From Candidatus Thorarchaeota archaeon (GTDB lineage Archaea; Asgardarchaeota; Thorarchaeia; Thorarchaeales; Thorarchaeaceae), in assembly GCA_019057595.1 (NCBI GenBank), contig DXJI01000003.1, positions 42,641 to 106,640 of the forward strand: 64,000 nt of DNA, read 5' to 3'. The translations under genes were made by a program, and so were the position numbers. This document shows positions 12,841-49,079 of this stretch, one piece after another (the first letter of the stretch is position 1; each line of letters starts with the position of its first letter). Under the pieces are notes generated by a model. It did not search any database and was not told the DNA's origin. It saw only the letters and a program-made list of their open reading frames with translations.

Positions 12841-12858
12841 TTAGAACACGTGTTCTAA
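12841..12858. promoter_or_regulatory. Perfect 18-bp palindrome with GAACACGTGTTC core at HDAC-family promoter
   Basis: TTAGAACACGTGTTCTAA is a perfect palindrome over all 18 bases. Its right end merges with the TATA-like AAATATATTC (12857-12866) that should drive the downstream histone-deacetylase-family gene, so a protein bound here would overlap the TFB/TBP site. The 12-base core occurs four more times in this window at 45.87-46.48 kb. The tRNA-Pro promoter lies on its other side. I interpret it as an operator; no binding protein is known. Confidence 0.7.
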
Positions 12859-12921: not shown

Positions 12922-13968
12922 ATGACCGATTTAGTATATCACGAAACATTTGTTGAACATGTGATGTCTCCTGGACATCCGGAAAGTCCAGATCGGTTGA
13001 GAAGCGCGATGAGATCTTTCAAAACTGTAAATCTGTTGGATAGTCCAACAGTAAATCTCCTCACACCCCAGAAGGCTTCTCTAGAAAAGATATACCCTAT
13101 CCATGGAGAGAACTACCTAGATGGAATAAAAGCGAAGTCGGAGAAGGGGGGCGGATTCTATACAATGGACACAGCGGTTAATCCGTATACTTACGATGCA
13201 GCGCTCTTGGCTGCGGGCGGTGGAATCAATGCTGTCGATAGAATCATGCAGGGTGATTCAGACAATGCATTTGTACTATGCAGACCTCCAGGTCATCACG
13301 CTGAATATGAACGAGCCTTTGGTTTTTGTTTCATCAACAACATCGCAGTAGCTGCTGAACACCTTTTGACCGAGTACGACATGAAACGGATATTGATAAT
13401 CGACTATGACGCTCATCATGGAAATGGTACCCAAGACACATTCTACTCCTCGGACAAAGTGCTGTATGTTGGACTACACCAAGATGGTAGAACTCTCTTC
13501 CCAGGTTCAGGATTTCCTGATGAAATTGGTGAAGGTGAGGGTGAGGGATATACGGTCAATCTCGCGATGTATCCAGGTGCAGGGGATGCATCATACAAGC
13601 TCGCGTTCGATCATGTACTTGACCCTCTGATGGAGTCATATAAACCGGAGTTCTTACTGGTTTCAGTAGGATATGATGGACACTTTAGGGACCCCTTGAC
13701 CTCTCTCGGTCTCACCACTTCTGGCTTTGCGATGATGAATTTGCGATTGAACCAGATGGCCAAGTCATACACTTATGGTAGAATTGCATGTTTTTTGGAA
13801 GGGGGGTATGATCTAGATGTGATGGGCAACTGTTCATTGAACCTCCTTCAAGAATTAGCTGGAGTAGATGTTTCAAAATTTGATAATGGATATAATGAAA
13901 GTGAAACAAGCTTGAAGTATACTGAGGAGCTGATTAAGAGAGTTGTTCAGGACTCTCCTTTACTGTGA
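12922..13968 (+). CDS. Histone deacetylase superfamily protein (AcuC/class II-like)
   Basis: Zinc-dependent deacetylase family; the substrate could be histone or other acetyl-lysine, acetylpolyamine or acetoin-related compounds. The active site is intact: the tandem His in RPPGHHAE (about residue 118), the zinc ligands in DYDAHHGNGTQ (about 156-166) and the third Asp in VGYDGHFRDPL (about 245). At 348 residues it is full length. GGTGG eight bases before the ATG supports the start. The promoter carries the palindromic element described at 12841, which suggests dedicated regulation. Confidence 0.92.
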   Translation: MTDLVYHETFVEHVMSPGHPESPDRLRSAMRSFKTVNLLDSPTVNLLTPQKASLEKIYPIHGENYLDGIKAKSEKGGGFYTMDTAVNPYTYDAALLAAGGGINAVDRIMQGDSDNAFVLCRPPGHHAEYERAFGFCFINNIAVAAEHLLTEYDMKRILIIDYDAHHGNGTQDTFYSSDKVLYVGLHQDGRTLFPGSGFPDEIGEGEGEGYTVNLAMYPGAGDASYKLAFDHVLDPLMESYKPEFLLVSVGYDGHFRDPLTSLGLTTSGFAMMNLRLNQMAKSYTYGRIACFLEGGYDLDVMGNCSLNLLQELAGVDVSKFDNGYNESETSLKYTEELIKRVVQDSPLL

Positions 13969-16249: not shown

Positions 16250-18328
16250 CTAACTCTGGGAGTGTCTGATTTTACCTTCTCTAGGACTATAGAGTATCCC
16301 GTCTTCGCGTAGCTTCTCAATGACCTTTTCAGCTCTTTCACGAGAGAGTCCCATTGATACGGTTCTCTGAATCAAAGCATCGATGTTCACTGTGGATGTA
16401 CCTTCAGCCTCCATGTCACGAAGTGCCTTGATGATGATATCAGATGAGCTCCTCTGCTCAGCACTCATCTTGGAAACCTGACGATCGATGTCAATTCTAC
16501 CTGTTATTCTGTCAAGGGCCACCATTCGTAGAGATTCTTCCATGAGACGGACCGCTGCTCTGGCATCTTCTTTGTTGACTTCGGACCGAAGTCCCATCTT
16601 TGCTCGTGCCTCTGCCAAACGGACAAGGGATTCAAGTTGTCGAGCCGTAATCGGAATTGCTCCTCCACCTTCTGCACTCTTTCTCAAATCCACATAGAAA
16701 TTCTCTATTACCTCCGCTGCTTCAGCAGTGAGTTGCGGAGTCACGTTAAGATTGGCATATCCAATGTATTTCTTAAGAAAATCTGGGGATATAGGGGGTA
16801 TTGCGGCTACATCTTGTATCTTCTTCTTCTGGTGCATGTCTAAAATGAATTTGGCCAGCTCTCGGTCTTGCTCGACATTCACAGTATCGACCATAATCCA
16901 AATCAGGTCAAATCTTGAGAGAATTGTAAAAGGCAGTCTGATGTTGTCTTGGAGTGTGAGAGAGTCTTCATAACGGCCTAGGGTTGGATTCGCAGCTGCT
17001 AGAATTGAAGTTCTTGCATTTAGTGTAGCCACAATACCTGCCTTTGCAATACTAACCGTGTGTTGTTCCATGGCTTCGTGTATTGCTGTGCGGTCATTGG
17101 GGTCCATCTTATCGAACTCGTCTATGCAAGCTATTCCTTGGTCAGCCAGTACTAGTGCTCCAGCCTCAAGAGTCATTGCGCTTGATTCCGTGTCATGAAC
17201 GACTGCTGCAGTAAGTCCAGCAGCGGTTGTACCTTTCCCAGAAGTGTATAGTCCTCGAGTAGCAAGTCCAGAAACAAACTTGAGTATCTGGCTCTTTCCT
17301 GTCCCAGGATCACCAATCATCAATATGTTAGATTTCCCCCTCAAACGGGTATATCCTTCATCATCTAGCATTTTTTGCACTCCACCAAAGAGGAGAAGGG
17401 CAATTGATTCTTTGATATCGTCATGACCTTTAATAGCCGGTGCTATGGATGCATAAATCCTCTCGTAGACTTGAGGGTGTTCTCCCAGTTCCTCAATGCG
17501 CTTTTGATCTTCTTCAGATATCTGTAGTTGTTCATACTCTTTCTCAGAGATTTCGACACCGTTTGCTTCGATGAACACGTTGAATGTGGCTAATTTGCCA
17601 CCCCTTCGCGAGAAATCAGGAGTGGTTTGTAGAATTCCTGTGACCTTGACAAGATCTCCTGGTCGGGATATATCGACAATGTCGCCTTCTAGAATGACAT
17701 CGACTGAACGGGGCATTTGTCCTGGTGGAAGTTCTTCAGGTGCTTCCTGTATCCTGACTTTCTGCCAGTCCTTGAACTGTGATTTTTGGAGTATTAGTTG
17801 TATTGGTGTCTTCTTTGTACAGACTGGACATAATGCGGGTTCTGTATATTTCCCTTCATCTTGATCTTGAGGGATTTCTGCTTGACAGATTCGGCAGAGG
17901 AAGACAGCTTTCACTAGGAGGGGTTTGACCTCACTGGCACGCATCAAGATGCCACTGATGTGGATTAACTTTCCAATGTGACGGGAACGAATTGTACGAA
18001 GCGGGACATGTTCAGTATCTTCATATCCAACGAAACGGATTTTTATGATACTTGTGTCAGCGAGCCCAGTGACATAATCGATGTCCTCGGCACTCAACGC
18101 GGCTATTAATGCACTACTTGTCATTTCCAAGAATTTCTTTGGGTCTTCAGCTGCGAGGGCTGTGAACACATTATCGAAGCTAACAAGATCTTTAAAATTC
18201 ACGGTGAGTGAAACTTCATCATTGAGAGACATCTGTTGAACTCGTCGCCAATAAGTGGCAGCACCATCTTCATCTTTGTAGGTCCTCAGAAACTCTGCAA
18301 ACCGATCCTGTTCGTCATACCCAGACAT
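16250..18328 (-). CDS. mcm: MCM replicative helicase
   Basis: The hexameric 3'-5' replicative helicase. The N-terminal domain carries a zinc finger of the C-x2-C type (FLCRICQAEI ... LCPVCTKK, about residues 145-185). The AAA+ part has Walker A GDPGTGKSQ, Walker B CIDEFDKM and the arginine-finger strand LSRFDLIW. A winged-helix end follows. I use the ATG at 18328 (692 residues), preceded by GAGG at about ten bases; a TTG at 18346 would add six residues. It lies 81 bases after gins23, a common archaeal pairing, and hel308 follows. Confidence 0.95.
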   Translation of the reverse strand: MSGYDEQDRFAEFLRTYKDEDGAATYWRRVQQMSLNDEVSLTVNFKDLVSFDNVFTALAAEDPKKFLEMTSSALIAALSAEDIDYVTGLADTSIIKIRFVGYEDTEHVPLRTIRSRHIGKLIHISGILMRASEVKPLLVKAVFLCRICQAEIPQDQDEGKYTEPALCPVCTKKTPIQLILQKSQFKDWQKVRIQEAPEELPPGQMPRSVDVILEGDIVDISRPGDLVKVTGILQTTPDFSRRGGKLATFNVFIEANGVEISEKEYEQLQISEEDQKRIEELGEHPQVYERIYASIAPAIKGHDDIKESIALLLFGGVQKMLDDEGYTRLRGKSNILMIGDPGTGKSQILKFVSGLATRGLYTSGKGTTAAGLTAAVVHDTESSAMTLEAGALVLADQGIACIDEFDKMDPNDRTAIHEAMEQHTVSIAKAGIVATLNARTSILAAANPTLGRYEDSLTLQDNIRLPFTILSRFDLIWIMVDTVNVEQDRELAKFILDMHQKKKIQDVAAIPPISPDFLKKYIGYANLNVTPQLTAEAAEVIENFYVDLRKSAEGGGAIPITARQLESLVRLAEARAKMGLRSEVNKEDARAAVRLMEESLRMVALDRITGRIDIDRQVSKMSAEQRSSSDIIIKALRDMEAEGTSTVNIDALIQRTVSMGLSRERAEKVIEKLREDGILYSPREGKIRHSQS

Positions 18329-18409
18329 CTTTCCTTGCCTCGACAACCGTTCTATGTACGATTCTTAGTTCCTCAAGATTCGTATTTAATGGACACTATT
18401 ACGCCTAAC

Positions 18410-19030
18410 CTATTCCAAAATCTTTTGGCGCCATCCAGATAGCAGGTCAATAAGTTCCTCACAGAGCCATCGTTCTTCATGGGCCATTTGTTTCCGTTTT
18501 TCTTGATATGCACCTGATTTAGCTACACGTAAGATTTTGGATAGTCTGGTTTCCACCAGAAAAGGAACCATTCGCTGTAGTTTTTCAATCTCTTCGTATT
18601 TTCGCGGATCTATCGATGTTTTGTCACTTTGAAGACGTAGCAACTTCCTTCCGAACGCAGTGTAGAGGAATGGTTGAAATGTCTGCAGCTTATGTGGTTG
18701 TTTCTCTTCTTCTCGATAGAGGTTCTGAAGACGTCTGACAGAATCATATGCATCCTCTGGAGTAACATCAACTATATCATTGATTAAAAGCCTCTCAATA
18801 ACCCAATTGGGTAGGTTTGCTCTATCACCCTTTTTGAATGGACCCAATTTATGTCCACTCACATTGAGTTCTGGAAGTGGTTTTTGGAAGATACATTCAC
18901 GGACCTCATTGAGGAACAGTATATCGAACCGTTCCATCACATCATTTGCTTCACTACACAGCTTCATGAATTCCCACACCACAGCCAGTGTTATTGGAAA
19001 TAAAGGCCTTGCTCTTTGACGACGAGCCAA
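18410..19030 (-). CDS. GINS subunit, Gins23 (Psf2/Psf3) type
   Basis: GINS joins MCM and the Cdc45/RecJ protein in the replicative helicase complex. The small B domain comes first (KLGPFKKGDRANLPNWVIER, about residues 62-81) and the helical A domain follows, which is the Psf2/Psf3-like order; Gins51 proteins have the reverse order. The protein is 206 residues long and starts with TTG at 19030. Position directly upstream of mcm is as in many archaea. The exact subtype is inferred from domain order. Confidence 0.82.
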   Translation of the reverse strand: MARRQRARPLFPITLAVVWEFMKLCSEANDVMERFDILFLNEVRECIFQKPLPELNVSGHKLGPFKKGDRANLPNWVIERLLINDIVDVTPEDAYDSVRRLQNLYREEEKQPHKLQTFQPFLYTAFGRKLLRLQSDKTSIDPRKYEEIEKLQRMVPFLVETRLSKILRVAKSGAYQEKRKQMAHEERWLCEELIDLLSGWRQKILE

Positions 19031-19078
19031 TAGTGATTAAGTCCGGAAACGATTCATATTGTGTCGAATTGTCAGAGA

Positions 19079-19089
19079 ATCTTTTAAGG
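19079..19089 (+). promoter_or_regulatory. TATA-like box of rfcS-rfcL
   Basis: ATCTTTTAAGG lies in the divergent gap between gins23 and rfcS, about 70 bases before the chosen rfcS start. It is the best TATA-like match on this strand in the gap. Confidence 0.4.
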
Positions 19090-19156
19090 GGTCATGGATG
19101 TGTCGTGCCATATTCTGACAACTTAACTAATGTATCTGATAATGGAAGGAATACCA

Positions 19157-20116
19157 ATGGATCTTGATTTATGGACTGAGAAGTATAGACCGCCAACATT
19201 GAGTGGAATAATTGGTCAGGAATCGGTGATTGACAGCCTGAAGAAATTCGTTGAGAACAAGGTTGTGCCACACTGTCTGTTTTCAGGACCGCCAGGAACT
19301 AGTAAGACCACTGCAGCAATGGCGATGGCGAGAGACCTCTTTGGTGAAACATTTAATCGAAACTTCATGGAGCTCAATGCCAGCGATGAGAGAGGAATTG
19401 ATGTTGTCAGAAACCAGATCAAGAACTTTGCTAGAACAATGCCTTCCGGAGACGCGCCGTTTAAGATACTGGTTCTTGATGAGGCGGATCACCTTACTGC
19501 AGACGCTCAGCATGCTCTTCGGCGGACCATGGAGTCGTTTGCAGCCTCATGTAGAATGGTATTGATTTGTAACTACTCAAGTAGGATTATACCCCCAATC
19601 CAGTCCAGATGTGCAATCTTCCGTTTCTCAAGATTAAGTGAAGAGGATATTTCCGGCCGACTTAAGTTTGTCGCAAAAAAGGAAGGTGTAAACCTTACAC
19701 CAGCAGGTATCAAGGCAATTCTATACCTTGCAGAAGGTGACATGAGAGCAGCTCTGAACCTTCTTCAGGCCGCATCATCTACTGGTGAAAAGGTGACAGA
19801 TGAGATTGTGTACTCAATTTCAGGAAGAGCAAGTCCAGAAACAATTAGAAAGATGTTAGTTGACGCGCAGGAGGGAAGATATGTCGACTCTCTTGATAGT
19901 CTCAGAAACCTGATCTATCAACAAGGTGTTTCACCTGTTGATCTTGTGAAACAGATGCACCGCGAAGTTGATGGTCTGGGTCTTGAACCTCACAAAAGGA
20001 TGGACATACTGGAGCACACTGCAGAGATAGAGTTTCGTGTTGGGGAGGGTGCAAATGGAGAGATTCAGTTGGCATCACTATTGGCAAGGATTGGAACTGG
20101 TAGTGAGTCTGTATGA
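19157..20116 (+). CDS. rfcS: Replication factor C small subunit
   Basis: Clamp-loader small subunit that loads PCNA onto DNA. It begins MDLDLWTEKYRPPTL, the typical RFC box. Walker A is GPPGTSKTTAA, Walker B is LVLDEADHL, and the sensor 1/SRC region is QSRCAIFRFSRL. I chose the ATG at 19157 because GGAAGGA lies six bases upstream and the encoded start matches family members; upstream ATG codons would add nine residues. The length is 319 residues. Its TGA stop overlaps the rfcL start by four bases (ATGA), so the subunits are translationally coupled. Confidence 0.95.
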   Translation: MDLDLWTEKYRPPTLSGIIGQESVIDSLKKFVENKVVPHCLFSGPPGTSKTTAAMAMARDLFGETFNRNFMELNASDERGIDVVRNQIKNFARTMPSGDAPFKILVLDEADHLTADAQHALRRTMESFAASCRMVLICNYSSRIIPPIQSRCAIFRFSRLSEEDISGRLKFVAKKEGVNLTPAGIKAILYLAEGDMRAALNLLQAASSTGEKVTDEIVYSISGRASPETIRKMLVDAQEGRYVDSLDSLRNLIYQQGVSPVDLVKQMHREVDGLGLEPHKRMDILEHTAEIEFRVGEGANGEIQLASLLARIGTGSESV

Positions 20117-21327
20117 GTGAAAATCTACCATGGGTTGAAAAACATCGACCGAGAAGCCTCAGAGATTTGGTTGGAAATCCAGAAACAGTCAAGGCATTGA
20201 AAAGCTGGATTGAGTCTTGGCTTTCAGGAACACCGAGTAAGAGTGCAGCTCTTTTAATTGGTCCACCAGGTACAGGAAAGACCGCATCGGTGGGAGCTAT
20301 TTCCAATGACCTGGATATGGAATTGGTTGAGTTCAATTCCAGTGACAAGAGAAACAAAGATAGTATTGAAACTCTTGTGTGGCGATCTGCATCACAAATG
20401 ACCCTTGATGGTCGAAACAGGCTCATACTCTTGGATGAGGTCGATGGTCTTTCGGGTACTAGTGATAGAGGGGGAGTCGGAGCAATCTTGAAGGTAATCA
20501 AGGATGCTGTGCATCCCATTGTCATGACTGCAAACGATCCTAATAGTCCAAGGCTCAAGGACCTATTCAAAGTGTGCAAGGTATTCAATTTTGGGCTCAT
20601 TGAGAACGATGATATGACTGTGGTTCTAAAGCGCATTCTATCAAAGAACAAGGAAAGTGTGACTGCTGACGTTCTTGAAGAGATAATCGAGAATGCAGGA
20701 GGAGACCTACGAGCAGCGGTTTCAGATCTAGAGTCACATGTCCGAGGTGGTTCGACATCTCAGGTCACTGCATCTTCTAGGGATGTCAGACGCGGCACTG
20801 AAGAAACTCTACGGCATCTTTTTGCATCTAATGATCCGAAGATAGCTAGAAGAATATTGTCTGAATCAGAACTTGCTCACGATTCATTGGTTCTATGGCT
20901 TGAAGAGAATCTGCATCTCCATCTTCTTTCATCAAAAGAATTGAATGATGGGTTGGAGGGGTTATCTCTTGCGGACGTATCACTTGGAAGAATCATGAGA
21001 AGTCAAAATTGGAAACTTCTTGCGTATGTCTATGAGTTTCTAGCTACTGGAGTAGCAATGAGTAGAACAATTACTCCTTTTCGGAGAGTTGAATACTCGC
21101 AGCCCACTTGGCCGCTTCTTGTTTGGCAGGGCAACAGAGAACGGGACAAACAATCCTCGATAAGATCTTCTCTTGGAACTCATACTGGGGTGTCGAAAAG
21201 GCGTGTTCGACAAACCCATCTAGATACCATTCAACAGATTATCAAGATTAATCCAAGGGCTCTGAAGGATTTTGCTTCTTGGTTGAATGTCGAGGAGTCA
21301 TCCCTGGTCCAGAGAAAAAATCGATGA
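20113..21327 (+). CDS. rfcL: Replication factor C large subunit
   Basis: Clamp-loader large subunit. The N-terminus LPWVEKHRPRSLRDLVGN, Walker A IGPPGTGKTAS and Walker B LLDEVDGL are all present. It has 404 residues, at the short end for this family, and the C-terminus (LVQRKNR) shows no recognisable PCNA-interacting QxxLxxFF motif, which many archaeal RfcL proteins carry. The last 80 bases overlap the 3' end of the convergent truA gene. Confidence 0.93.
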   Translation: MSENLPWVEKHRPRSLRDLVGNPETVKALKSWIESWLSGTPSKSAALLIGPPGTGKTASVGAISNDLDMELVEFNSSDKRNKDSIETLVWRSASQMTLDGRNRLILLDEVDGLSGTSDRGGVGAILKVIKDAVHPIVMTANDPNSPRLKDLFKVCKVFNFGLIENDDMTVVLKRILSKNKESVTADVLEEIIENAGGDLRAAVSDLESHVRGGSTSQVTASSRDVRRGTEETLRHLFASNDPKIARRILSESELAHDSLVLWLEENLHLHLLSSKELNDGLEGLSLADVSLGRIMRSQNWKLLAYVYEFLATGVAMSRTITPFRRVEYSQPTWPLLVWQGNRERDKQSSIRSSLGTHTGVSKRRVRQTHLDTIQQIIKINPRALKDFASWLNVEESSLVQRKNR

Positions 21328-22117
21328 CATTGTCCAGAGTTCTTATCGACCGGTTGTGATGTTCGAACCTTTCTTTGAGATGAGCCGAAATCCTGCGAAT
21401 TGCATATTTGTTGGTTTTCAACCTCAGTGGGACTACAGATTCTAATAGAACGAGATTCTCGGGGGGAGCAGGCATTATTCCACTTGGGATTGACACACGT
21501 CCAGTGAGTATATCATTGATTTCGTCAAATCTGATTTCTCCGGACCCGACATCTGATAGTAGGGTGACAACCTTTCGAACCAATTTCCAGAGAAAACGGG
21601 TCCCGATTATATCGAGCCAGAACCTTCCATTAGTATCTTGGAGAGAAATATTCAGAATTGTGGTCATCGTGTTTCGACTATTATCAGGTTTTGATAGATG
21701 ATTGTAATCATTGGAACCAATCAGTAGATTGATGGCATTCTTCACTGCAGTGCGATTGATAAACTCCCAGGATTTTGGAAGATAATATCTATAGTGGCGC
21801 ATTAGCACACTGTAGCGTGGTTTGAAATCAACAGGAGCTTTTGCTGACGCCCAAAGTTGAATATCTTCTGGAAGGTGTCTATTGATTTTATCAACATCGA
21901 TACGTTTGCTCGTACTCACCATCACTAGCTGTCCTAAACTATGAACTCCCCGATCAGTTCTTCCTGAAAGTTGGATTGTTTGAGGTGAATGGGTTTCTCC
22001 ACTCCAACTAGCTAGTGCATCAATTAGCTTTCCTTGAACGGTATCAATTCCTGGTTGGTATTGTGATCCATGGTATCTGTCGCCAAGATAGAACAGACGT
22101 GCTAGGTAGTCTGTCAT
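21248..22117 (-). CDS. truA: tRNA pseudouridine synthase TruA
   Basis: Converts uridines at positions 38-40 of tRNA to pseudouridine. The catalytic aspartate lies in LSGRTDRGVHSLGQ (about residues 49-62), and other family blocks include FKPRYSVLMRHYRYYL and IIGTRFLWKLVRKVV. The protein has 289 residues. Its C-terminal 26 codons overlap rfcL on the other strand, so this end may be less conserved than the rest. The small HTH gene ends one base upstream of the start, suggesting a cdc6-HTH-truA operon. Confidence 0.92.
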   Translation of the reverse strand: MTDYLARLFYLGDRYHGSQYQPGIDTVQGKLIDALASWSGETHSPQTIQLSGRTDRGVHSLGQLVMVSTSKRIDVDKINRHLPEDIQLWASAKAPVDFKPRYSVLMRHYRYYLPKSWEFINRTAVKNAINLLIGSNDYNHLSKPDNSRNTMTTILNISLQDTNGRFWLDIIGTRFLWKLVRKVVTLLSDVGSGEIRFDEINDILTGRVSIPSGIMPAPPENLVLLESVVPLRLKTNKYAIRRISAHLKERFEHHNRSIRTLDNVIDFFSGPGMTPRHSTKKQNPSEPLD

Positions 22118-22118
22118 A

Positions 22119-22403
22119 TCATGACTCCCATAGATTGAACAAACTCCTCAGAGACCGTGCTCGTAGATCCTCAATCCTGTATCGATAGATTTTGATTCTC
22201 CCAAACTTCTTCTCTTCTATAAGGCCTGTTTTCAACAAGACTGCAAGATGAGCTTTTGTAGAGCTATGATTCAGATCAACTCGTCTACAGAGCTCAGATA
22301 TGTTTAGTTCATTGGAAATGGCTAGCTCTTTGAGTATCTTTATCCGACCTCGTGATGAGAATACATCCTCTATTGGAACGGTGTTGTTGGTTTCAGCGCT
22401 CAT
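22119..22403 (-). CDS. ArsR-like winged helix-turn-helix protein
   Basis: A small DNA-binding protein. The body is one winged helix with recognition region NISELCRRVDLNHSSTKAHL and a wing KKFGRIKIYRY, resembling archaeal ArsR/MarR-like regulators. I place the start at the ATG at 22403, giving 94 residues and overlapping the end of orc1/cdc6 by 11 bases; the frame is open 11 codons further upstream. No metal-binding cysteine cluster is visible apart from one Cys. The position between cdc6 and truA suggests co-transcription. Its target is unknown. Confidence 0.75.
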   Translation of the reverse strand: MSAETNNTVPIEDVFSSRGRIKILKELAISNELNISELCRRVDLNHSSTKAHLAVLLKTGLIEEKKFGRIKIYRYRIEDLRARSLRSLFNLWES

Positions 22404-23622
22404 TTTGTTTTCGAGTTGCCTCCTTTGTTGTATCAAGCAGACTTGATAGGAACTGCTCTAACATTTCTGCAGGAACTTCTGAGAAACCAATGAGGGTAGT
22501 CTGACCTCTCTGACCGGTACCAGATTTTTTCGCATCGATTATTCCATGAGCGTTGAGGTCCTGCACCCACTCCCATATCTGGGTGTGGGCTCTCGGTTCT
22601 TCATAGTATTCTTCACAAATTGACCGATACATCTCCTCAACCTCACCTATTGTGATATAGGCACTACGGATTTCTTTGAGTTGTCTCGCTGCAGCCAATA
22701 GAAGTAGCTTGTGTTGGGTGGGCAGAGTGGCAAAAATTTCCTTTCTCAATTCAGGATGAGTATCGGTTTTGGCACGTCTAGCGTAATCTGGAATCAGTAT
22801 GTCTTTCTGATCGCGATCTGCACTCTTTCCGGCCCTCCATAAGAGTTCAATTGCATATCGTGCGTCACCGTGTTCTGACGCAATGTCACAAATGACCTGA
22901 ATTGTTTCATCCATGACTGCGTTTTTCATAAAAGCCATTTCAACACGGTCTCTAAGAATGTCATAAAGGGCTTCTCGGTTGTATTTTGTGAACCGTAGAA
23001 TATTTCGTTGGAGTGTACTAAGTGTACTTGCATCGAGAATATCTTCATCAAGGGGAATTTTCCGCCCGATTCCAATGATGGATAGTCGCTGGGTTGCATT
23101 CAGTCGATCATCCATAATCCGGGTCAGGTCATAGAGAATATCTGCACCTCTCTGTCTGATGAAATAGTCTAGTTCATCAAGAATCAATAGAAGATATCTG
23201 TCCTCCTCATCAAGGACTTCGACTAGTATTTGAAGTAATTCATCAGGAGAATGTCCACGTCTGGGAAACTTTGGTTTAAACTCTCTCAAGGCTCGAAGAA
23301 AAACAAGATATGCAGTCTTATTGACCCGGCAATTGATATGGATACTATGAAGTCTGATGTTGCGTCGTTTGGCAGCCTGAATCATCTGTTCCGAGAATCG
23401 TTTAGCAACCGCAGTTTTTCCAGTTCCTACTGGACCTTCAATGATGAATTTGTGACTCGTGCGACCTGGTGAACTAATCAATGTCTTGAAGCTTTGAACC
23501 AAGGCTCGAATCTCAGACTGTCTATGTGGAAGATTCTCTGGCACGTAGTCAATGGATAAGAACTGTTCTGACTTGAAAACACTACTTTTGCTGAGCTCAT
23601 CTTCTATATAGTCGTGCGACAT
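22393..23622 (-). CDS. Orc1/Cdc6 replication initiator
   Basis: Origin-recognition AAA+ protein. Walker A is EGPVGTGKTAVAKR, Walker B is LLLILDELDYF, sensor 1 lies in SIIGIGRKI, and the C-terminal 90 residues form a winged helix. The ATG at 23622 (409 residues) is preferred over an upstream start 24 codons earlier, because a TATA box (CCTTTTAAGG, 23652-23661) lies inside that longer frame and predicts transcription from about 23631. I see no ORB-like repeat around this gene; the ORB-like elements in the window are at 42.17 and 46.28-46.45 kb. Confidence 0.93.
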   Translation of the reverse strand: MSHDYIEDELSKSSVFKSEQFLSIDYVPENLPHRQSEIRALVQSFKTLISSPGRTSHKFIIEGPVGTGKTAVAKRFSEQMIQAAKRRNIRLHSIHINCRVNKTAYLVFLRALREFKPKFPRRGHSPDELLQILVEVLDEEDRYLLLILDELDYFIRQRGADILYDLTRIMDDRLNATQRLSIIGIGRKIPLDEDILDASTLSTLQRNILRFTKYNREALYDILRDRVEMAFMKNAVMDETIQVICDIASEHGDARYAIELLWRAGKSADRDQKDILIPDYARRAKTDTHPELRKEIFATLPTQHKLLLLAAARQLKEIRSAYITIGEVEEMYRSICEEYYEEPRAHTQIWEWVQDLNAHGIIDAKKSGTGQRGQTTLIGFSEVPAEMLEQFLSSLLDTTKEATRKQNER

Positions 23623-23651
23623 GGAATTCAAGAACCAGCTCTGGTTATGTG

Positions 23652-23661
23652 CCTTAAAAGG
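23652..23661 (-). promoter_or_regulatory. TATA box of orc1/cdc6
   Basis: The palindromic CCTTTTAAGG is centred about 35 bases before the ATG at 23622, giving a predicted transcript with a leader of about nine bases. It decides the start choice for this gene. Confidence 0.55.
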
Positions 23662-23835
23662 ATTTGCGGAGGGTACGATTAAACGAACAAACATAGGGTA
23701 GGTTGCCGAAAGTAATGGCGAGCTCCTAACTCAAGATCCATATCATCGTCATTTCTGACTCATTGGGGTCATAGCAATCATCACTCGCCAATTATTGTAA
23801 TTGTCTCTTCTCCCTTAAAGTTGACGAAAATTGGT

Positions 23836-42001: not shown

Positions 42002-42164
42002 TCGCTTATTTTCGGAATTCACACTTGTTCATGTTTACATCAGTTCACACTGTTCCCTTGTGAATGGCGCCAATATTGTGAATACTCTGGAGAGAATAGA
42101 CATCTTATCGCTCTAGGAGTAGAACGGAGGGCCGATATATGCGGTGATACCTGTGAATAAGCAC

Positions 42165-42190
42165 ACCCCTCCGTTTCCAGTGGAAACAGG
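42165..42190 (-). other. Origin recognition box (ORB)-like element A
   Basis: The minus strand reads GTTTCCACTGGAAACGGAGG followed by GGT. The dyad GTTTCCA-n-TGGAAAC (42173-42187) followed by a G-rich tract is the classic archaeal ORB layout bound by Orc1/Cdc6 proteins. It lies in a 480-base AT-rich gap between the nucleotidyltransferase and a winged-helix-like gene. Only one clear copy is present here. Confidence 0.55.
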
Positions 42191-42285
42191 TAAGAAGACA
42201 TATGAAATGCTTACATGCTCATTCACAAGACCCATATATTTGTGAATAACAAAACGAATGGAGAATCCTGTTTATTTATCCAAAT

Positions 42286-42306
42286 AAGGGTTCATAACCC
42301 TTTTTT
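42286..42306 (+). terminator. Hairpin with T-run
   Basis: AAGGGTT-CAT-AACCCTT (42286-42302) is a perfect seven-pair hairpin followed by further T residues. It could end transcription from the nucleotidyltransferase gene, although it lies 285 bases after its stop, or it could be a structural element of this intergenic region. Confidence 0.35.
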
Positions 42307-42482
42307 ATGGTCAAATGGACATGACAGGACGTCAGCACAGTAAATACAGGGTGGACGAGTCCCATATGTGTATAGACGCATTATGTAGCTCTTATCTCGG
42401 TATAGACAATTCACATACTCACACTTATTTGCAGAGTGAGTGTAATTAATTGTGAACAGTCAAGAGTAAGGAGACACAATGT

Positions 42483-44469: not shown

Positions 44470-45768
44470 TCATAGTTCTCCTATGTATTGCTCTAGATAC
44501 TGATAGGTTTCAGTTAGTTTACCCTGGTATACAATAACGGCATCTTTGAGCTCCCGGGGTAGGTCAAGCTCAGAGAATTGAACAGTGAAATCAGCTTTCG
44601 CCAAGGAAGGTATGAAATCAAGCAATGTTTCACTGAAAGATGTAGATGATTCTCGTGGTAGCTCGGATGGAAGATTGTCAACTGCCATCACGACAGGACC
44701 TTCGCCTACGACACCTAGCTCAGCTCGATCCTCATCAATTAGATAAGTAAAAGCAGGTTTGTTTGCTTTTGTACAGTCAAGAGTAAATTCAATCGCACCC
44801 TCAACATCACAGGAAATGTCTCCTACAATCTGGAGTCTTCGAGATTCTTGTTTCCAATGATTTTGGATAAACTCCTTTGTTATCAAGCGTGGGTACTTGT
44901 CTGTCCAGTAGATACAGTTCATTAACACGGTAATGTAAGGAATGTACTTGTGAAACACACCAGTGTACTTGGTTTTTCCATGCTTGTAATAGTCCTGCAG
45001 GTCGAACTGATCAGAGGGTTTTGTCGGCTCAACCATGTGTTCTTCCTTGAAGACACATTTGTGAATCAAGTGTGATTCTGGAGAAATGTGTTCGATTTCT
45101 TCTGGGTCTATGTCTGTGTGAGGAAGTATATCGAATATCTCTTGGGCACCTCTTGACACATTACCATAGCCAGCAAAGCCGATTACAAATGGTGTGAGCT
45201 CCTGTGGAAGTCCTTGTTCTTTGATTCGTTGACCAAGAATTGTAAACTCCTCTTTTAGCTCTGCAAGTCCACCCAGTTCATACGTCGGTTTCATTTCAGC
45301 AAATGGATTAGGTGTGACTCCTTGTGCTTCCAAACGGTCACCAAGCATACGGAATGTATCAGAAATACCCGCCATTCCAGCCCAGTTTCCAAAGTAGATC
45401 AATCTTCGGCCCTTGTCGTCGACAACGCGTTCGTAGTCAATCAATGTGGCTCCTACATCCATGATTCGTTTGAGCATGGGCATATTGTAATCTTGGCCTT
45501 TGATAGTGTGGCTGAAGAAAATATAGACTATATCTTTCTCAAAGAAGTCAGTGGGCATCTCTTTGATCCCCAAAACAACGGATGTATTACTGCCCTTCAG
45601 GGGTAATACTTCAGCTTGGTACTCGTCTTCTTTGAATGCACGTTGATCGCTTGGTTCAATTACAAACTCGATACTATGCTTGTCATGTAGTAATTTGACA
45701 TGAGTAGGTACAACAGGTACTCGAGTTTCGAATGCTTTCTCTTCCTTTCTAAGTCCAATCCGGTTCAC
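44470..45768 (-). CDS. Lysine-ketoglutarate reductase (LKR)-like protein
   Basis: Resembles the N-terminal LKR half of eukaryotic alpha-aminoadipic semialdehyde synthase, which condenses lysine and 2-oxoglutarate to saccharopine. Supporting blocks are GLRKEEKAFETRVPVVPTHV at the start, YIFFSHTIKGQDYNMPML, IDYERVVDDKGRRLIYFGNW followed by AGMAGI, and the dinucleotide loop GFAGYGNVSRGAQEIFD. It has 432 residues. It precedes the saccharopine dehydrogenase gene directly. Whether the pathway runs toward lysine breakdown or synthesis is not shown; breakdown fits the fermentation genes nearby. Confidence 0.85.
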   Translation of the reverse strand: MNRIGLRKEEKAFETRVPVVPTHVKLLHDKHSIEFVIEPSDQRAFKEDEYQAEVLPLKGSNTSVVLGIKEMPTDFFEKDIVYIFFSHTIKGQDYNMPMLKRIMDVGATLIDYERVVDDKGRRLIYFGNWAGMAGISDTFRMLGDRLEAQGVTPNPFAEMKPTYELGGLAELKEEFTILGQRIKEQGLPQELTPFVIGFAGYGNVSRGAQEIFDILPHTDIDPEEIEHISPESHLIHKCVFKEEHMVEPTKPSDQFDLQDYYKHGKTKYTGVFHKYIPYITVLMNCIYWTDKYPRLITKEFIQNHWKQESRRLQIVGDISCDVEGAIEFTLDCTKANKPAFTYLIDEDRAELGVVGEGPVVMAVDNLPSELPRESSTSFSETLLDFIPSLAKADFTVQFSELDLPRELKDAVIVYQGKLTETYQYLEQYIGEL

Positions 45769-45871: not shown

Positions 45872-45883
45872 GAACACGTGTTC
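45872..45883. promoter_or_regulatory. GAACACGTGTTC palindrome, copy 2
   Basis: A perfect 12-base palindrome (AGAACACGTGTTCT over 14 bases) directly in front of the TTG at 45885 that may start the small ORF. One of five identical cores in the window. Confidence 0.7.
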
Positions 45884-45884
45884 T

Positions 45885-46193
45885 TTGATTTGGTTGATCT
45901 ATTTGACTGAATATCTGTATCTCTATGATTGTCATCAGGCACGGCGTAGCAATGCAAGACGAGTCGCTTTTACAAAGGAGCTCTATGGCTTTGTATATTC
46001 ATGGAGGACCAAATCTGGAATCAAGCAGAAAAGAAAACAAGGTCTGTTAGATGAGTGTCCAGGTGCCCAGGCTGTTGCTGATTCTGCGATATTGGTTCCT
46101 TCTGAGCATCGTATCATTTTTGATTCACTGTTTCAGATGTATGAAGACATTCTTAAAATCAAGATCTATGAAGTGGCCCAAGAAATCTATTAG
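45885..46193 (+). CDS. Small basic protein of unknown function framed by palindromes
   Basis: An open frame of up to 102 residues, probably shorter, since TTG codons at 45885, 45894 and 45903 are all possible starts. The C-terminal 85 residues look like a real conserved-type domain: RRVAFTKELYGFVYSWRTKS, then KRKQGLLDECPGAQAVADSA and ILVPSEHRIIFDSLF. It is basic and could bind nucleic acid, but I do not recognise the family. A GAACACGTGTTC palindrome precedes it and another begins within its TAG stop codon, so the gene is exactly bracketed. It lies next to the candidate origin. Confidence 0.55.
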   Translation: MIWLIYLTEYLYLYDCHQARRSNARRVAFTKELYGFVYSWRTKSGIKQKRKQGLLDECPGAQAVADSAILVPSEHRIIFDSLFQMYEDILKIKIYEVAQEIY

Positions 46194-46204
46194 AACACGT
46201 GTTC
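46193..46204. promoter_or_regulatory. GAACACGTGTTC palindrome, copy 3
   Basis: A perfect 12-base core whose first base is the last base of the TAG stop of the small ORF. The wider match to copies 4 and 5 is AGAACACGTGTTCCAA. Confidence 0.7.
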
Positions 46205-46254
46205 CAACTTCTATTACTTGTAATACAGTTAGTACGCGATCTCGAAAATAGGCA

Positions 46255-46266
46255 GAACACGTGTTC
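46255..46266. promoter_or_regulatory. GAACACGTGTTC palindrome, copy 4
   Basis: A perfect 12-base core, 12 bases away from ORB-like element B. Its extended form AGAACACGTGTTCCAAAC is shared with copy 5. Confidence 0.7.
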
Positions 46267-46278
46267 CAAACGCAATCG

Positions 46279-46303
46279 AACCCCCTTGCTTCCACTAGAA
46301 ACT
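46279..46303 (-). other. ORB-like element B
   Basis: The minus strand reads TTCTAGTGGAAGCAAGGGGG then TT: the dyad-like TTCnAGTGGAA followed by a G-tract, as in archaeal origin recognition boxes. It faces element C in inverted orientation across an AT-rich core. Confidence 0.5.
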
Positions 46304-46425
46304 ATTTAAAAACGTCTAACCGGTAAAATATCCAAAAGTATTTATAATCGTTTTTCTAGCCTGTTCTTATCTCCATTTTTATAATGCATACACACACGCC
46401 CGCCGCTAGAATTCTCCATTGATCC

Positions 46426-46446
46426 TTCCAGTGGAAATGAAGGGGT
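46426..46446 (+). other. ORB-like element C
   Basis: TTCCAGTGGAAATGAAGGGG then T matches the archaeal ORB layout closely (TTCCAGTGGAAAC-type dyad plus G-tract). With element B it forms the inverted pair of the candidate origin. Confidence 0.6.
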
Positions 46447-46468
46447 CTTACCCGTACAATACTAACTA

Positions 46469-46480
46469 GAACACGTGTTC
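46469..46480. promoter_or_regulatory. GAACACGTGTTC palindrome, copy 5
   Basis: A perfect 12-base core 22 bases beyond ORB-like element C and about 90 bases before the iorA start. Copies 4 and 5 thus bracket the inverted ORB pair. Confidence 0.7.
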
Positions 46481-46567: not shown

Positions 46568-48460
46568 TTGGCTAGACCCAAGGAACTTCTTGAGGATAAA
46601 CCAGGAAAGAAGGTTCTTCTTCTCGCTAACGAAGCAATTGCAAGGGGTGTGCTAGAAGCAGGAGTCCGACTTGTTGCTCTCTATCCTGGTACGCCTAGTA
46701 GTGAGATTGGAAACAACCTGACGTTCATGGCTCCCCACATTCCTAACTTCTACTTTGAATTTAGTACAAATGAGAAGGTAGCTCTGGAAGTGGCAGGGGC
46801 CGCTGCAGTTGCAGGAGTGAGATCTATGATGGTCTGTAAAGGTCCGGGTCTCAATGTAGCTGCTGATCCGTTCTTTTCGTTGGCCTATGTGGGTGTCCGT
46901 GGAGGAATGGTGATAGTCGTTGCCGATGATCCAAGTATGTGGAGCTCACAGAACGAGAATGATAGCAGATACTATGCACTGATGGGAAACATGCCAATGA
47001 TGGAACCCGCTGATCCTATAGAAGCAAAATCTATGCTACTCGAGGCTTACAAATTCTCAGAAAAGCTAGAACTTCCAGTGCTTTTTCGTACCACCACAAG
47101 AGTAAATCATTCAAGGGCTCCTGTAAAATTCGGGAAAATCCCCTCACGTCCAGATAAGGTCGAGTTTGTAAAAGAACCATTCCGGTTTGTCCCCATTCCA
47201 TCTGTCGCACGCAAAAGACATCCATGGCTTCTCGGACAGATAGATATTGCACGTGAGTTATCAGAAAAAAGTCCATTGAACTTCACCGAAGGTAAGGGTG
47301 ATCTTGGAATAATCACCTGTGGTGTTTCATACAATTATGTTGTTGAAGCATTATCATCTATGGAAATTAAAGCAGAAGTCTTGAAGCTCGGAATCACTCA
47401 TCCTGTTCCGGAGAAGATGATTACTGATTTTCTGGGCCGTCATAAACAAGTACTGATTGTTGAAGAACTCGAACCATTCCTTGAAACACATGCAAGACGA
47501 CTGGCTCAACTCAGTAAGATCACCGTAGACATTCTTGGTAAGGAACAGGGAATCTTCTCTCGCACCTATGAGTATAGTCCGAGGATTGTGATGAATGCAT
47601 TAAAAGAAATTACTACACGTAATACACCTATTAACTGGGAAGAAATCGATAAGAAAGTCCAAAAGTTGCCAGAAATGCCTCCGAGACCTCCGCTCCTCTG
47701 CGCTGGATGTCCACATAGAGCAACATACTATGCAATCAAAGCTGCAACAAGAGGGAAAGCAATCTATCCAACTGATATTGGCTGTTACACCCTAAGTATT
47801 GCTCCACCATTAGAAACCGCAGACATACTATTCGATATGGGATCTTCAATAACTACTGCGTGTGGTCTTGCTGAAGTCACAGACCAAGATATTGTTGCTA
47901 CAATTGGTGATAGCACGTTCTTTGCATCTGGTCTTCCTGGTATCACAAATGCGGTTTACAATCAACATCGTATATGCGTAGTAGTGCTTGACAATCGAAC
48001 TACTGCTATGACCGGTCATCAACCACACCCTGGAACTGGACTGACTGGAATGCAGAAAGAAGTCCCACCTCTAGACATAGAAGAAGTATGCAAAGGTCTG
48101 GGTGTGAAATATGTCAAGACTGTTGAACCGTTTGAATCAATGGCAGGTCTGGTTGCTGAGGTACGTGAGATGGTCAAGTGGGCCAAGGAGAATCACAGTC
48201 CTGCAGTACTAGTTTCAAAGGAGGCATGTGCACTTCTCACTGCTGCTGATCGTCGTCGCGCTGGTGAATTCCCACCCAAATACTACGTTGATTCAGAGGT
48301 ATGTAATGCGTGCAAACGATGTCTCAATCGTCTCTCTTGTCCTGCTATGTACTTGGACCCAGAAACAGAACAGGCTGTAATTGATGAAACCCAATGTAAC
48401 CTCTGTGGAACTTGTGTTTCTGTATGTCCACAAGGTGCAATAAAACAGGAGGATGCATAA
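46568..48460 (+). CDS. iorA: Indolepyruvate:ferredoxin oxidoreductase alpha subunit
   Basis: Oxidises arylpyruvates from aromatic amino acids to aryl-acetyl-CoA, reducing ferredoxin. The N-terminal pyruvate-oxidoreductase-like domain contains LYPGTPSSEIGNNL. The TPP-binding domain has GDSTFFASGLPGITNAVYNQ, with AGCPHRATYYAIKAA before it. Two C-terminal ferredoxin clusters are visible (CNACKRCLNRLSCPAMY and CNLCGTCVSVCP); the first has an atypical spacing. The protein has 630 residues. The start is TTG at 46568 with GGAGGA seven bases upstream. iorB follows directly. Confidence 0.95.
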   Translation: MARPKELLEDKPGKKVLLLANEAIARGVLEAGVRLVALYPGTPSSEIGNNLTFMAPHIPNFYFEFSTNEKVALEVAGAAAVAGVRSMMVCKGPGLNVAADPFFSLAYVGVRGGMVIVVADDPSMWSSQNENDSRYYALMGNMPMMEPADPIEAKSMLLEAYKFSEKLELPVLFRTTTRVNHSRAPVKFGKIPSRPDKVEFVKEPFRFVPIPSVARKRHPWLLGQIDIARELSEKSPLNFTEGKGDLGIITCGVSYNYVVEALSSMEIKAEVLKLGITHPVPEKMITDFLGRHKQVLIVEELEPFLETHARRLAQLSKITVDILGKEQGIFSRTYEYSPRIVMNALKEITTRNTPINWEEIDKKVQKLPEMPPRPPLLCAGCPHRATYYAIKAATRGKAIYPTDIGCYTLSIAPPLETADILFDMGSSITTACGLAEVTDQDIVATIGDSTFFASGLPGITNAVYNQHRICVVVLDNRTTAMTGHQPHPGTGLTGMQKEVPPLDIEEVCKGLGVKYVKTVEPFESMAGLVAEVREMVKWAKENHSPAVLVSKEACALLTAADRRRAGEFPPKYYVDSEVCNACKRCLNRLSCPAMYLDPETEQAVIDETQCNLCGTCVSVCPQGAIKQEDA

Positions 48461-48461
48461 T

Positions 48462-49079
48462 ATGGGTGGTAATAATGGTAATACAATAAATGTTGCAATC
48501 ACTGGAGTAGGTGGTCAAGGAGTTCTATCTCTCGCAGAAATTTTGGCAAAAGCAGCTCTCCAATGTGGTCTCAATGTTCGTGTAGGAGAGATCCACGGAA
48601 TGGCTCAACGAGGAGGTCATGTTGTCTGTACAGTACGTATGGGAGAGAATGCCAAGGGTCCAATCATAGACCCAGGTTCTGCTCATCTTCTTGTTGGCTT
48701 TGAGCCAGTTGAAACTCTTAGAGAGATTCAACTAGTGAAACAAGGTGGTTGTGTTCTGATGAGCTCTCATGTTCAGTATCCTGTTGCTGTTTCAATGGGA
48801 CAGGCTGAGTATCCTAACCATGAAGAGATAATCAAAGCCATGAACAAGTACACTGACAAGATAATTGAATTCGATGCGTTGGAGCTTGCAGTGAAAGCCG
48901 GAAGCTCCCGATCACTCAATATGGTAATGTTGGGAGCTATCATAGGTACTGGTTTAGTACCAATCACTGAAAAGACTGCAATTGAAGTTGTCAGCTCTAC
49001 CTTTGCAAAGAAATTCGAGAAAATCAATGTTGGTGCTACTAAACTAGGATTTGAAATGGCCAAAGCCTGCAAGGAATAG
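48462..49079 (+). CDS. iorB: Indolepyruvate:ferredoxin oxidoreductase beta subunit
   Basis: Gamma-type (KorC-like) subunit of the IorAB complex. Typical motifs are NVAITGVGGQGVLSLAEILA and VGEIHGMAQRGGHVVCTVRM. I use the ATG at 48462, one base after the iorA stop codon, because AGGAGGA lies seven bases upstream; an ATG at 48453 inside iorA would add three residues. The protein has 205 residues, as expected. Confidence 0.94.
   Translation: MGGNNGNTINVAITGVGGQGVLSLAEILAKAALQCGLNVRVGEIHGMAQRGGHVVCTVRMGENAKGPIIDPGSAHLLVGFEPVETLREIQLVKQGGCVLMSSHVQYPVAVSMGQAEYPNHEEIIKAMNKYTDKIIEFDALELAVKAGSSRSLNMVMLGAIIGTGLVPITEKTAIEVVSSTFAKKFEKINVGATKLGFEMAKACKE

Follow-up and report, generated by a model that had tools for sequence, protein, structure and literature searches.

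The 64-kb stretch of DNA analysed here (hereafter the window) carries copies of a 12-base palindrome, GAACACGTGTTC, one of them upstream of a histone-deacetylase (HDAC)-family gene and the others clustered between a divergent AlaDh/PNT-domain gene and an iorA-like gene. We refer to the AlaDh/PNT-domain gene as LKR, as we infer it to be lysine-ketoglutarate-reductase-like. Within the cluster lie a small gene and an inverted pair of Orc1/Cdc6 boxes (ORBs) on either side of an A+T-richer stretch (Table 1). Elsewhere in the window, mcm, two RFC-type genes and orc1/cdc6 fall within 8 kb (16250-23694), about 22–30 kb from the predicted origin described below.

Table 1. Palindrome copies, origin elements and genes of the window.
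Feature	Position	Strand	Description
Palindrome copy 1	12841..12858, core 12844-12855	.	18-bp perfect palindrome TTAGAACACGTGTTCTAA, upstream of HDAC-family gene
HDAC-family gene	12922..13968	+	PF00850 (Pfam)
mcm gene	16250..18346	-	
orc1/cdc6-family gene	22393..23694	-	Cdc6_C, Cdc6_lid; ~22 kb from predicted origin
Third ORB-like box	42166..42183	-	within intergenic stretch 42002-42482
LKR	44470..45768	-	AlaDh/PNT domain (Pfam); divergent
Palindrome copy 2 (P1), core	45872..45883	.	5' of the small gene's likely start
Small gene	45903..46193	+	96 aa, basic N-terminal half; TTG start, from alignment with relatives
Palindrome copy 3 (P2), core	46193..46204	.	first base is last base of small-gene stop codon
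Palindrome copy 4 (P3), core	46255..46266	.	
ORB 1	46281..46298	-	CTAGTGGAAGCAAGGGGG on minus strand; 3 mismatches to YCAGTGGAAAYRAAGGGG
Inter-ORB region	46299..46427	.	66% A+T, putative unwinding element
Second conserved inter-ORB element	46366..46382	+	TTTATCTCCATTTTTAT type, 1 mismatch
ORB 2	46428..46445	+	CCAGTGGAAATGAAGGGG; 0 mismatches to YCAGTGGAAAYRAAGGGG
Palindrome copy 5 (P4), core	46469..46480	.	
iorA-like gene	46568..48460	+	TPP_enzyme_C, POR_N, Fer4 (Pfam)
iorB-like gene	48453-49079		after iorA-like gene

The original prediction, made from the letters of the window, had listed five exact copies of GAACACGTGTTC. We found all five and no other, and the chance expectation given for them, about 0.004, was reproduced with a dinucleotide model (0.0039 exact copies). 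Elsewhere in the window there are no one-mismatch versions and two two-mismatch versions, and among the 11 palindromic 12-mers present, GAACACGTGTTC is the only one that occurs more than once. Copy 1 is, as described, a perfect 18-base palindrome, and an inverted ORB pair does lie between copies 4 and 5. Three further details needed correction. The shared flanks, including the CCAA continuation, hold for copies 3–5, but copy 2 runs on as TTTG rather than YAA; beyond the palindrome and short flanks, the copies diverge in sequence. The small ORF is bracketed to the base at its 3' end but not at its 5' end, where 19 bases separate copy 2 from the gene because the start that fits the relatives is the TTG at 45903, not 45885. 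Finally, a TATA-like run does lie beside copy 1 in the window, but it is inconstant upstream of the HDAC genes of relatives.

We fetched 59 LKR-neighbour loci from public genomes and used 21 of them (L001-L020 and L040), which come from 20 genomes; 20 of the 21 are from Thorarchaeota or Lokiarchaeota. In 18 of the 21 loci, LKR has two to four palindromes upstream of it, each exact or changed to CACATG in the centre. Two of the three exceptions stop short of the region (L012, L018), and in the third (L040) the sites lie ~5 kb away on the other side. Genome-wide, the core GAACAYRTGTTC produced 198 matches in the 20 related Asgard genomes (3–17 per genome), compared with 5 in total (0–2 per genome) for a reversed-pattern control.

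For sites not in the LKR clusters we then retrieved 128 surrounding regions, two of which (L096 and L206) turned out to be origin loci. In these regions we called ORFs by a simple longest-ORF rule and scored the flanks of each site out of 6 for TTR...YAA, with 5 or 6 counted as strong. The 106 strongly flanked dispersed sites comprise 76 intergenic sites, 13 near a predicted ORF 5' end and 17 in coding sequence; coding sites make up 3 of the 6 with a score of 4 and 18 of the 21 with a score of 3 or less. This split suggests that the site is approximately TTRGAACACRTGTTCYAA and that weakly flanked matches are chance-like. The strongly flanked sites number from 0 (G020) to 10 per genome, with a mean of ~5 (105 in the 20 genomes and 1 in the window). 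Across 227 Asgard genomes, TNRGAACACGTGTTCYNA is present in 47, of which 42 belong to a single 47-genome block of the listing, the one containing the 20 Thor-type genomes (hereafter the Thor block); allowing YR in the centre, the flanked site is present in 61 of the 227, again with 42 in the Thor block. These genome counts are not independent, owing to shared ancestry.

The most recurrent target of the dispersed sites, found in 15 of the 20 genomes, is an uncharacterised gene of ~120–165 aa, and the HDAC-family gene has the palindrome upstream in 13 of the 20 as well as in the window. Pfam annotation of representatives identified less frequent targets: polX, HdrA-like, MetRS, ZIP, flavodiiron, radical SAM and FGGY genes, and an F420 ligase with topoisomerase VI B. 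A TTTATA box lies 48–54 bp beyond the palindrome upstream of the 120–165-aa gene in 15 of 15 cases; upstream of the other targets the distance from the palindrome to a TATA-like sequence is variable and thus does not point to one mode of control. Many loci of the 120–165-aa gene (L080, L089, L115, L142, L173 and others) have a leader with GGCCGGGAGGCC after the TTTATA box, and an Rfam search of 11 loci of this gene produced no match. In the three genomes checked (G005, G201 and G209), an ORB stands at the start of the same gene. The polX coding region keeps the palindrome to the base in six loci (L088, L093, L105, L126, L143 and L144), and the polX site, over LRTRVP codons, makes up 6 of the 17 coding strongly flanked sites.

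The sites are thus not scattered at random, as most of the strongly flanked ones are intergenic, and they are not missing from the orthologous intergenic regions of relatives, as the LKR and HDAC counts indicate. A conserved palindromic operator-like site in the intergenic regions of orthologous genes is what a regulon would present, and by sequence conservation the palindrome is almost certainly a protein-binding site.

The inverted ORB pair flanking A+T-richer DNA has the arrangement of an ORB-type origin. The window has three ORB matches, against a mean of 0.41 in 100 shuffles, 3 of which reached three; by itself this count is modest, and the case rests on conservation. Both ORBs (at most 3 mismatches) are present at 19 of 29 Thor-block loci and one ORB at the other 10, where the 29 include L005 and L206 and count G003 twice. 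Start-to-start spacing of the ORBs is 142–150 bp in the 19 two-ORB loci and 147 in the window. The original prediction proposed looking for palindromes at the ORB pair in relatives, and there the layout recurs together with the small gene, in the order small-gene stop, palindrome, ORB(-), ORB(+), palindrome. The distance from stop to palindrome is mostly -24 to 41 bp, reaching 151 bp in L008 and ~1.5 kb in L009; in L282 no palindrome was found after the stop.

In an alignment of 20 loci, the most conserved blocks are the ORBs and the palindromes. The inter-ORB element of the TTTATCTCCATTTTTAT type is present in many of these loci, in direct or reverse orientation. Its core, TATCTCCATTTT, occurs once in the G005 genome, between the ORBs, twice in G209 (one at the origin) and twice in G194 (neither at the ORB pair), and is absent from G095, G201 and G204. 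G005 (CP070658) is one 2.58-Mb scaffold with some N runs and contains four ORBs at 2 or fewer mismatches. Three of them are concentrated at the small-gene/LKR locus, and the fourth (position 1698183) is 122 bp downstream of the 120–165-aa target gene's palindrome (1698049-1698060). Strand composition lends the origin no support: GC skew sampled in 20 stretches of G005 showed no clear switch, and cumulative skew in the window peaks, rather than bottoms, near 46 kb. We conclude that the four-copy cluster probably belongs to a replication origin. The conserved, fixed-spacing ORB pair and the orthologous sites support the reading in the original prediction of a putative DNA-binding-protein site common to a candidate origin and the HDAC-family gene and linking the two.

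Two other features of these loci stood out. The intergenic stretch 42002-42482 of the window holds, besides its ORB (42166, minus), nine TTCACA/TGTGAA hexamers in 481 bp, compared with a window average of 1.06 per kb. In each of 19 related stretches checked, there are 7–10 such hexamers per 700 bp around the ORB versus 0.3–1.0 elsewhere in the locus, with L040 and L206 in this comparison being the same region. The window stretch may be another repeat cluster associated with an ORB, ~4 kb away from the origin. In G003, two small-gene/ORB/palindrome loci (L003 and L096) lie on different contigs, indicating either two origins or two strains in the bin.

The small gene is present in 52 of the 227 Asgard genomes. 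A flanked site occurs in 46 of these 52 genomes versus 15 of the 175 without the gene, counts that are inflated by shared ancestry. Gene and site occur together in 11 outgroup genomes, where 15 of the 20 flanked sites are no more than 2 kb away from the gene. No match was obtained in a Pfam search of the longer frame (45885-46190) or in an NCBIfam search of the small protein, and its database matches (the best 120 of 252, the best 120 of 233 and all of 40) are hypothetical proteins, from Asgard archaea where named. Eleven residues are invariant in 28 of 28 aligned small proteins: Y8, D9, R20, F23, K25, G29, Y32, W34, G47, S61 and F77. An AlphaFold2 model built with 18 sequences (mean pLDDT 92) has a ferredoxin-like order of strands and helices. 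Comparison of this predicted fold with PDB structures yielded no clear relative and no recognised DNA-binding fold, and a viral structure library returned one weak papillomavirus E2 row (E 0.33, TM 0.29). We consider the product of the small gene the best candidate for the protein that binds the palindrome, at slightly better than even chances.

Sites and small gene do not always go together. Seven Thor-block genomes (G204, G207, G212, G213, G217, G220 and G225) have 1–7 flanked sites, and no credible small gene was found in them; G213 has one 20-residue match that contains a stop (E 0.86). LKR also gave no match in any of the seven, with a query that was positive in all five control genomes. 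The single 3.16-Mb contig of G204 has seven flanked sites yet neither small gene, LKR nor ORB pair. With no LKR in any of the seven and no ORB pair in G204, the whole origin locus appears to be missing from these genomes. Outside the Thor block, eight genomes have one or two flanked sites and no small gene.

In the stretches fetched from outgroup Asgard genomes (G092-G095, G097-G099 and G193-G198), neither LKR nor iorA was seen beside the small gene. In the longer of these stretches an orc1/cdc6-type gene lies within a few kb of the small gene. Pfam identified Cdc6 domains in G095 (L266), G194 (L298) and G198 (L296); the cut-off orc1/cdc6-type genes of G093, G098 and G099 have AAA domains only, and their N-termini resemble those of the former three. 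Palindrome, ORB pair and small gene occur near orc1/cdc6 in Jordarchaeales-type genomes (G093, G095, G098 and G099). The palindrome begins exactly at the small-gene stop, followed by the ORB pair, in G092, G093 and G095, and 7–9 bp past the stop in G097-G099; the core in G097 and G098 is a variant one. In G193 and G194 the small gene has a perfect ORB pair next to it but no palindrome nearby; in G195-G198 no ORB pair was found, and palindromes lie 0.6–1.1 kb from the small gene. The orc1/cdc6-type gene is followed by a DP1-like DNA_pol_E_B gene in G194 and G198, so that in G194, an Odinarchaeum-type genome, ORB pair and small gene are near both orc1/cdc6 and a DP1-like DNA polymerase subunit. 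Both ORBs of the 1418269-bp G194 contig (2/2), perfect and inverted, fall at this one locus (C1:622652-622884). The pair is not at position 1 of the Odinarchaeum genome, which, according to an excerpt of the genome report, was chosen by skew as a potential origin (PMC9246712).

We propose that the four clustered palindromes are accessory elements of a chromosomal origin in Thorarchaeia-type and some other Asgard archaea, with a dedicated binder whose site was also recruited to promoters, an explanation that as a whole we judge moderately probable. The origin core would consist of ORB(-), the A+T-richer stretch with the second conserved element, and ORB(+), and Orc1/Cdc6 would bind the ORBs, as their match to the ORB sequence suggests. 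Just outside the ORBs are the palindromes, one over the stop of the small gene and another shortly before its start. They would be bound by a dedicated protein, in all likelihood as a homodimer given that the site is an 18-bp inverted repeat; if this is the small-gene product, for which the chances are a little above even, it would also regulate its own expression. Within the Thor block, the palindrome may have been recruited upstream of other genes or may serve as a distributed binding or titration site. From the combination of origin sites with dispersed sites upstream of genes, the binder may couple replication initiation with gene expression. A search of the open-licence literature found no described Thorarchaeota replication origin. 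The locus offers a candidate origin that is precise, conserved and of defined architecture, together with a sequence element and a small protein family that are both new, in archaea near the ancestry of eukaryotes.

Three other explanations have to be weighed. The system could be the same, joining origin and promoters, with some other protein (a winged-helix, XRE/CBS or LexA-like protein or an Orc1/Cdc6 paralogue) as the binder and a different origin function for the small protein; we think this rather unlikely, although several observations point toward it. No DNA-binding fold is recognised in the small protein, and seven genomes retain sites without it. Near the small gene, G195-G198 and G193-G194 encode an HTH-plus-CBS protein and a winged helix of the TrmB-like type, but neither HTH gene was found by tblastn in the fetched Thor-block or Jord/Frey-type stretches, both occur in the Odinarchaeum-type genome, which is without the palindrome, and it is the small gene that is the shared neighbour. 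The case for a LexA-like protein starts from the palindrome itself: in Gram-positive bacteria the LexA box consists of this core, GAAC-N4-GTTC, and a search of the open-licence literature found the exact 12-mer in 2 of 5.39 million papers, one of them a review of the S. aureus SOS response, where it stands within CGAACACGTGTTCT upstream of umuC (PMC11442139). Among genomes with core or flanked sites, 20 of 24 have a LexA_DNA_bind (PF01726) match, versus 2 of 8 other Asgard genomes. These 22 matches in 32 genomes are, however, weak and partial (20.8–27.2 bits, with 11 over the cut-off), and the domain also matches in four archaeal controls. The archaeal site shares the core with the LexA box but extends to TTR...YAA, and its annotated targets do not resemble the SOS set.

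Alternatively, the palindrome could be a mere transcription operator of an amino-acid/redox regulon (LKR, iorAB, HDAC, HdrA-like, flavodiiron and others) and the ORB pair an independent origin that shares the intergenic region by chance. Many dispersed sites do lie upstream of genes with no evident link to replication, and in Thor-block genomes the cluster is flanked by LKR and iorA. However, the flanked sites of Jord/Frey-type genomes are few and for the most part adjoin the small gene and ORB pair, with LKR and iorA not seen there, and the fourth ORB of G005 likewise stands beside a palindrome; we regard this explanation as improbable. Chance, or repeat expansion by a mobile element or assembly artefact, would explain the repetition itself and nothing more. 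With 0.004 copies expected against five, sequence differences outside the palindrome and short flanks, and positions that are fixed across many genomes, such an origin of the copies is contradicted by conservation and has a negligible probability.

The arrangement of the predicted origin resembles known archaeal ORB-type oriC regions in its inverted ORBs about an A+T-richer stretch, and oriC1 of Sulfolobus is described, in the excerpted text, as an AT-rich DUE flanked by inverted ORBs (PMC12141716). With the CTT upstream of it, ORB 2 of the window reads CTTCCAGTGGAAATGAAGGGGT, compared with the archaeal ORB consensus CTTCCAGTGGAAACGAAAGGGGT given in an extract of PMC4153887. There are also differences. 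The orc1/cdc6 gene, which would be expected beside such an origin, is 22 kb off in the window; in outgroup genomes it is within a few kb of the corresponding elements. The window in addition has palindromes outside the ORBs and a small gene with a palindrome at its ends; among the papers listed by searches of the open-licence literature, none describes the origin palindrome or the small protein in its title or the opening of its abstract.

The closest described system is ucm and its binding protein UBP of Sulfolobus. In the excerpted text, UBP is a small basic protein of 111 aa that binds the origin motif ucm, positioned between the ORBs, as a monomer, gives 329 ChIP peaks that are enriched in intergenic regions, and affects gene expression (PMC12141716). 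A small basic protein (here a candidate), an origin motif and further intergenic sites are common to both systems as far as that text describes ucm/UBP. Where ucm lies midway between the ORBs, the Asgard palindromes are outside the pair, symmetric and present as 3–17 core copies per genome; in placement, the Asgard inter-ORB TATCTCCATTTT element is more alike. Profiles of the small protein searched against PDB sequences, a set that may not include UBP, retrieved no UBP-like entry.

The viral origin-binding proteins E2 and EBNA1 form ferredoxin-like dimers and recognise palindromes of 12–18 bp, located at an origin as well as in promoters. The small protein is predicted to have a ferredoxin-like topology and showed no sequence match to either, and neither is among the PDB fold rows listed for its model. 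Tentatively, and with somewhat less than even confidence, we suggest that an origin-encoded regulator of initiation is common to several Asgard lineages. It would be a small ferredoxin-like protein that acts as a dimer on an 18-bp palindrome flanking Orc1/Cdc6 boxes and autoregulates, and whose sites have spread in Thorarchaeia to promoters such as that of the HDAC-family gene. If true, its logic would make it the cellular equivalent of E2, EBNA1 or DnaA, tying replication to gene expression.
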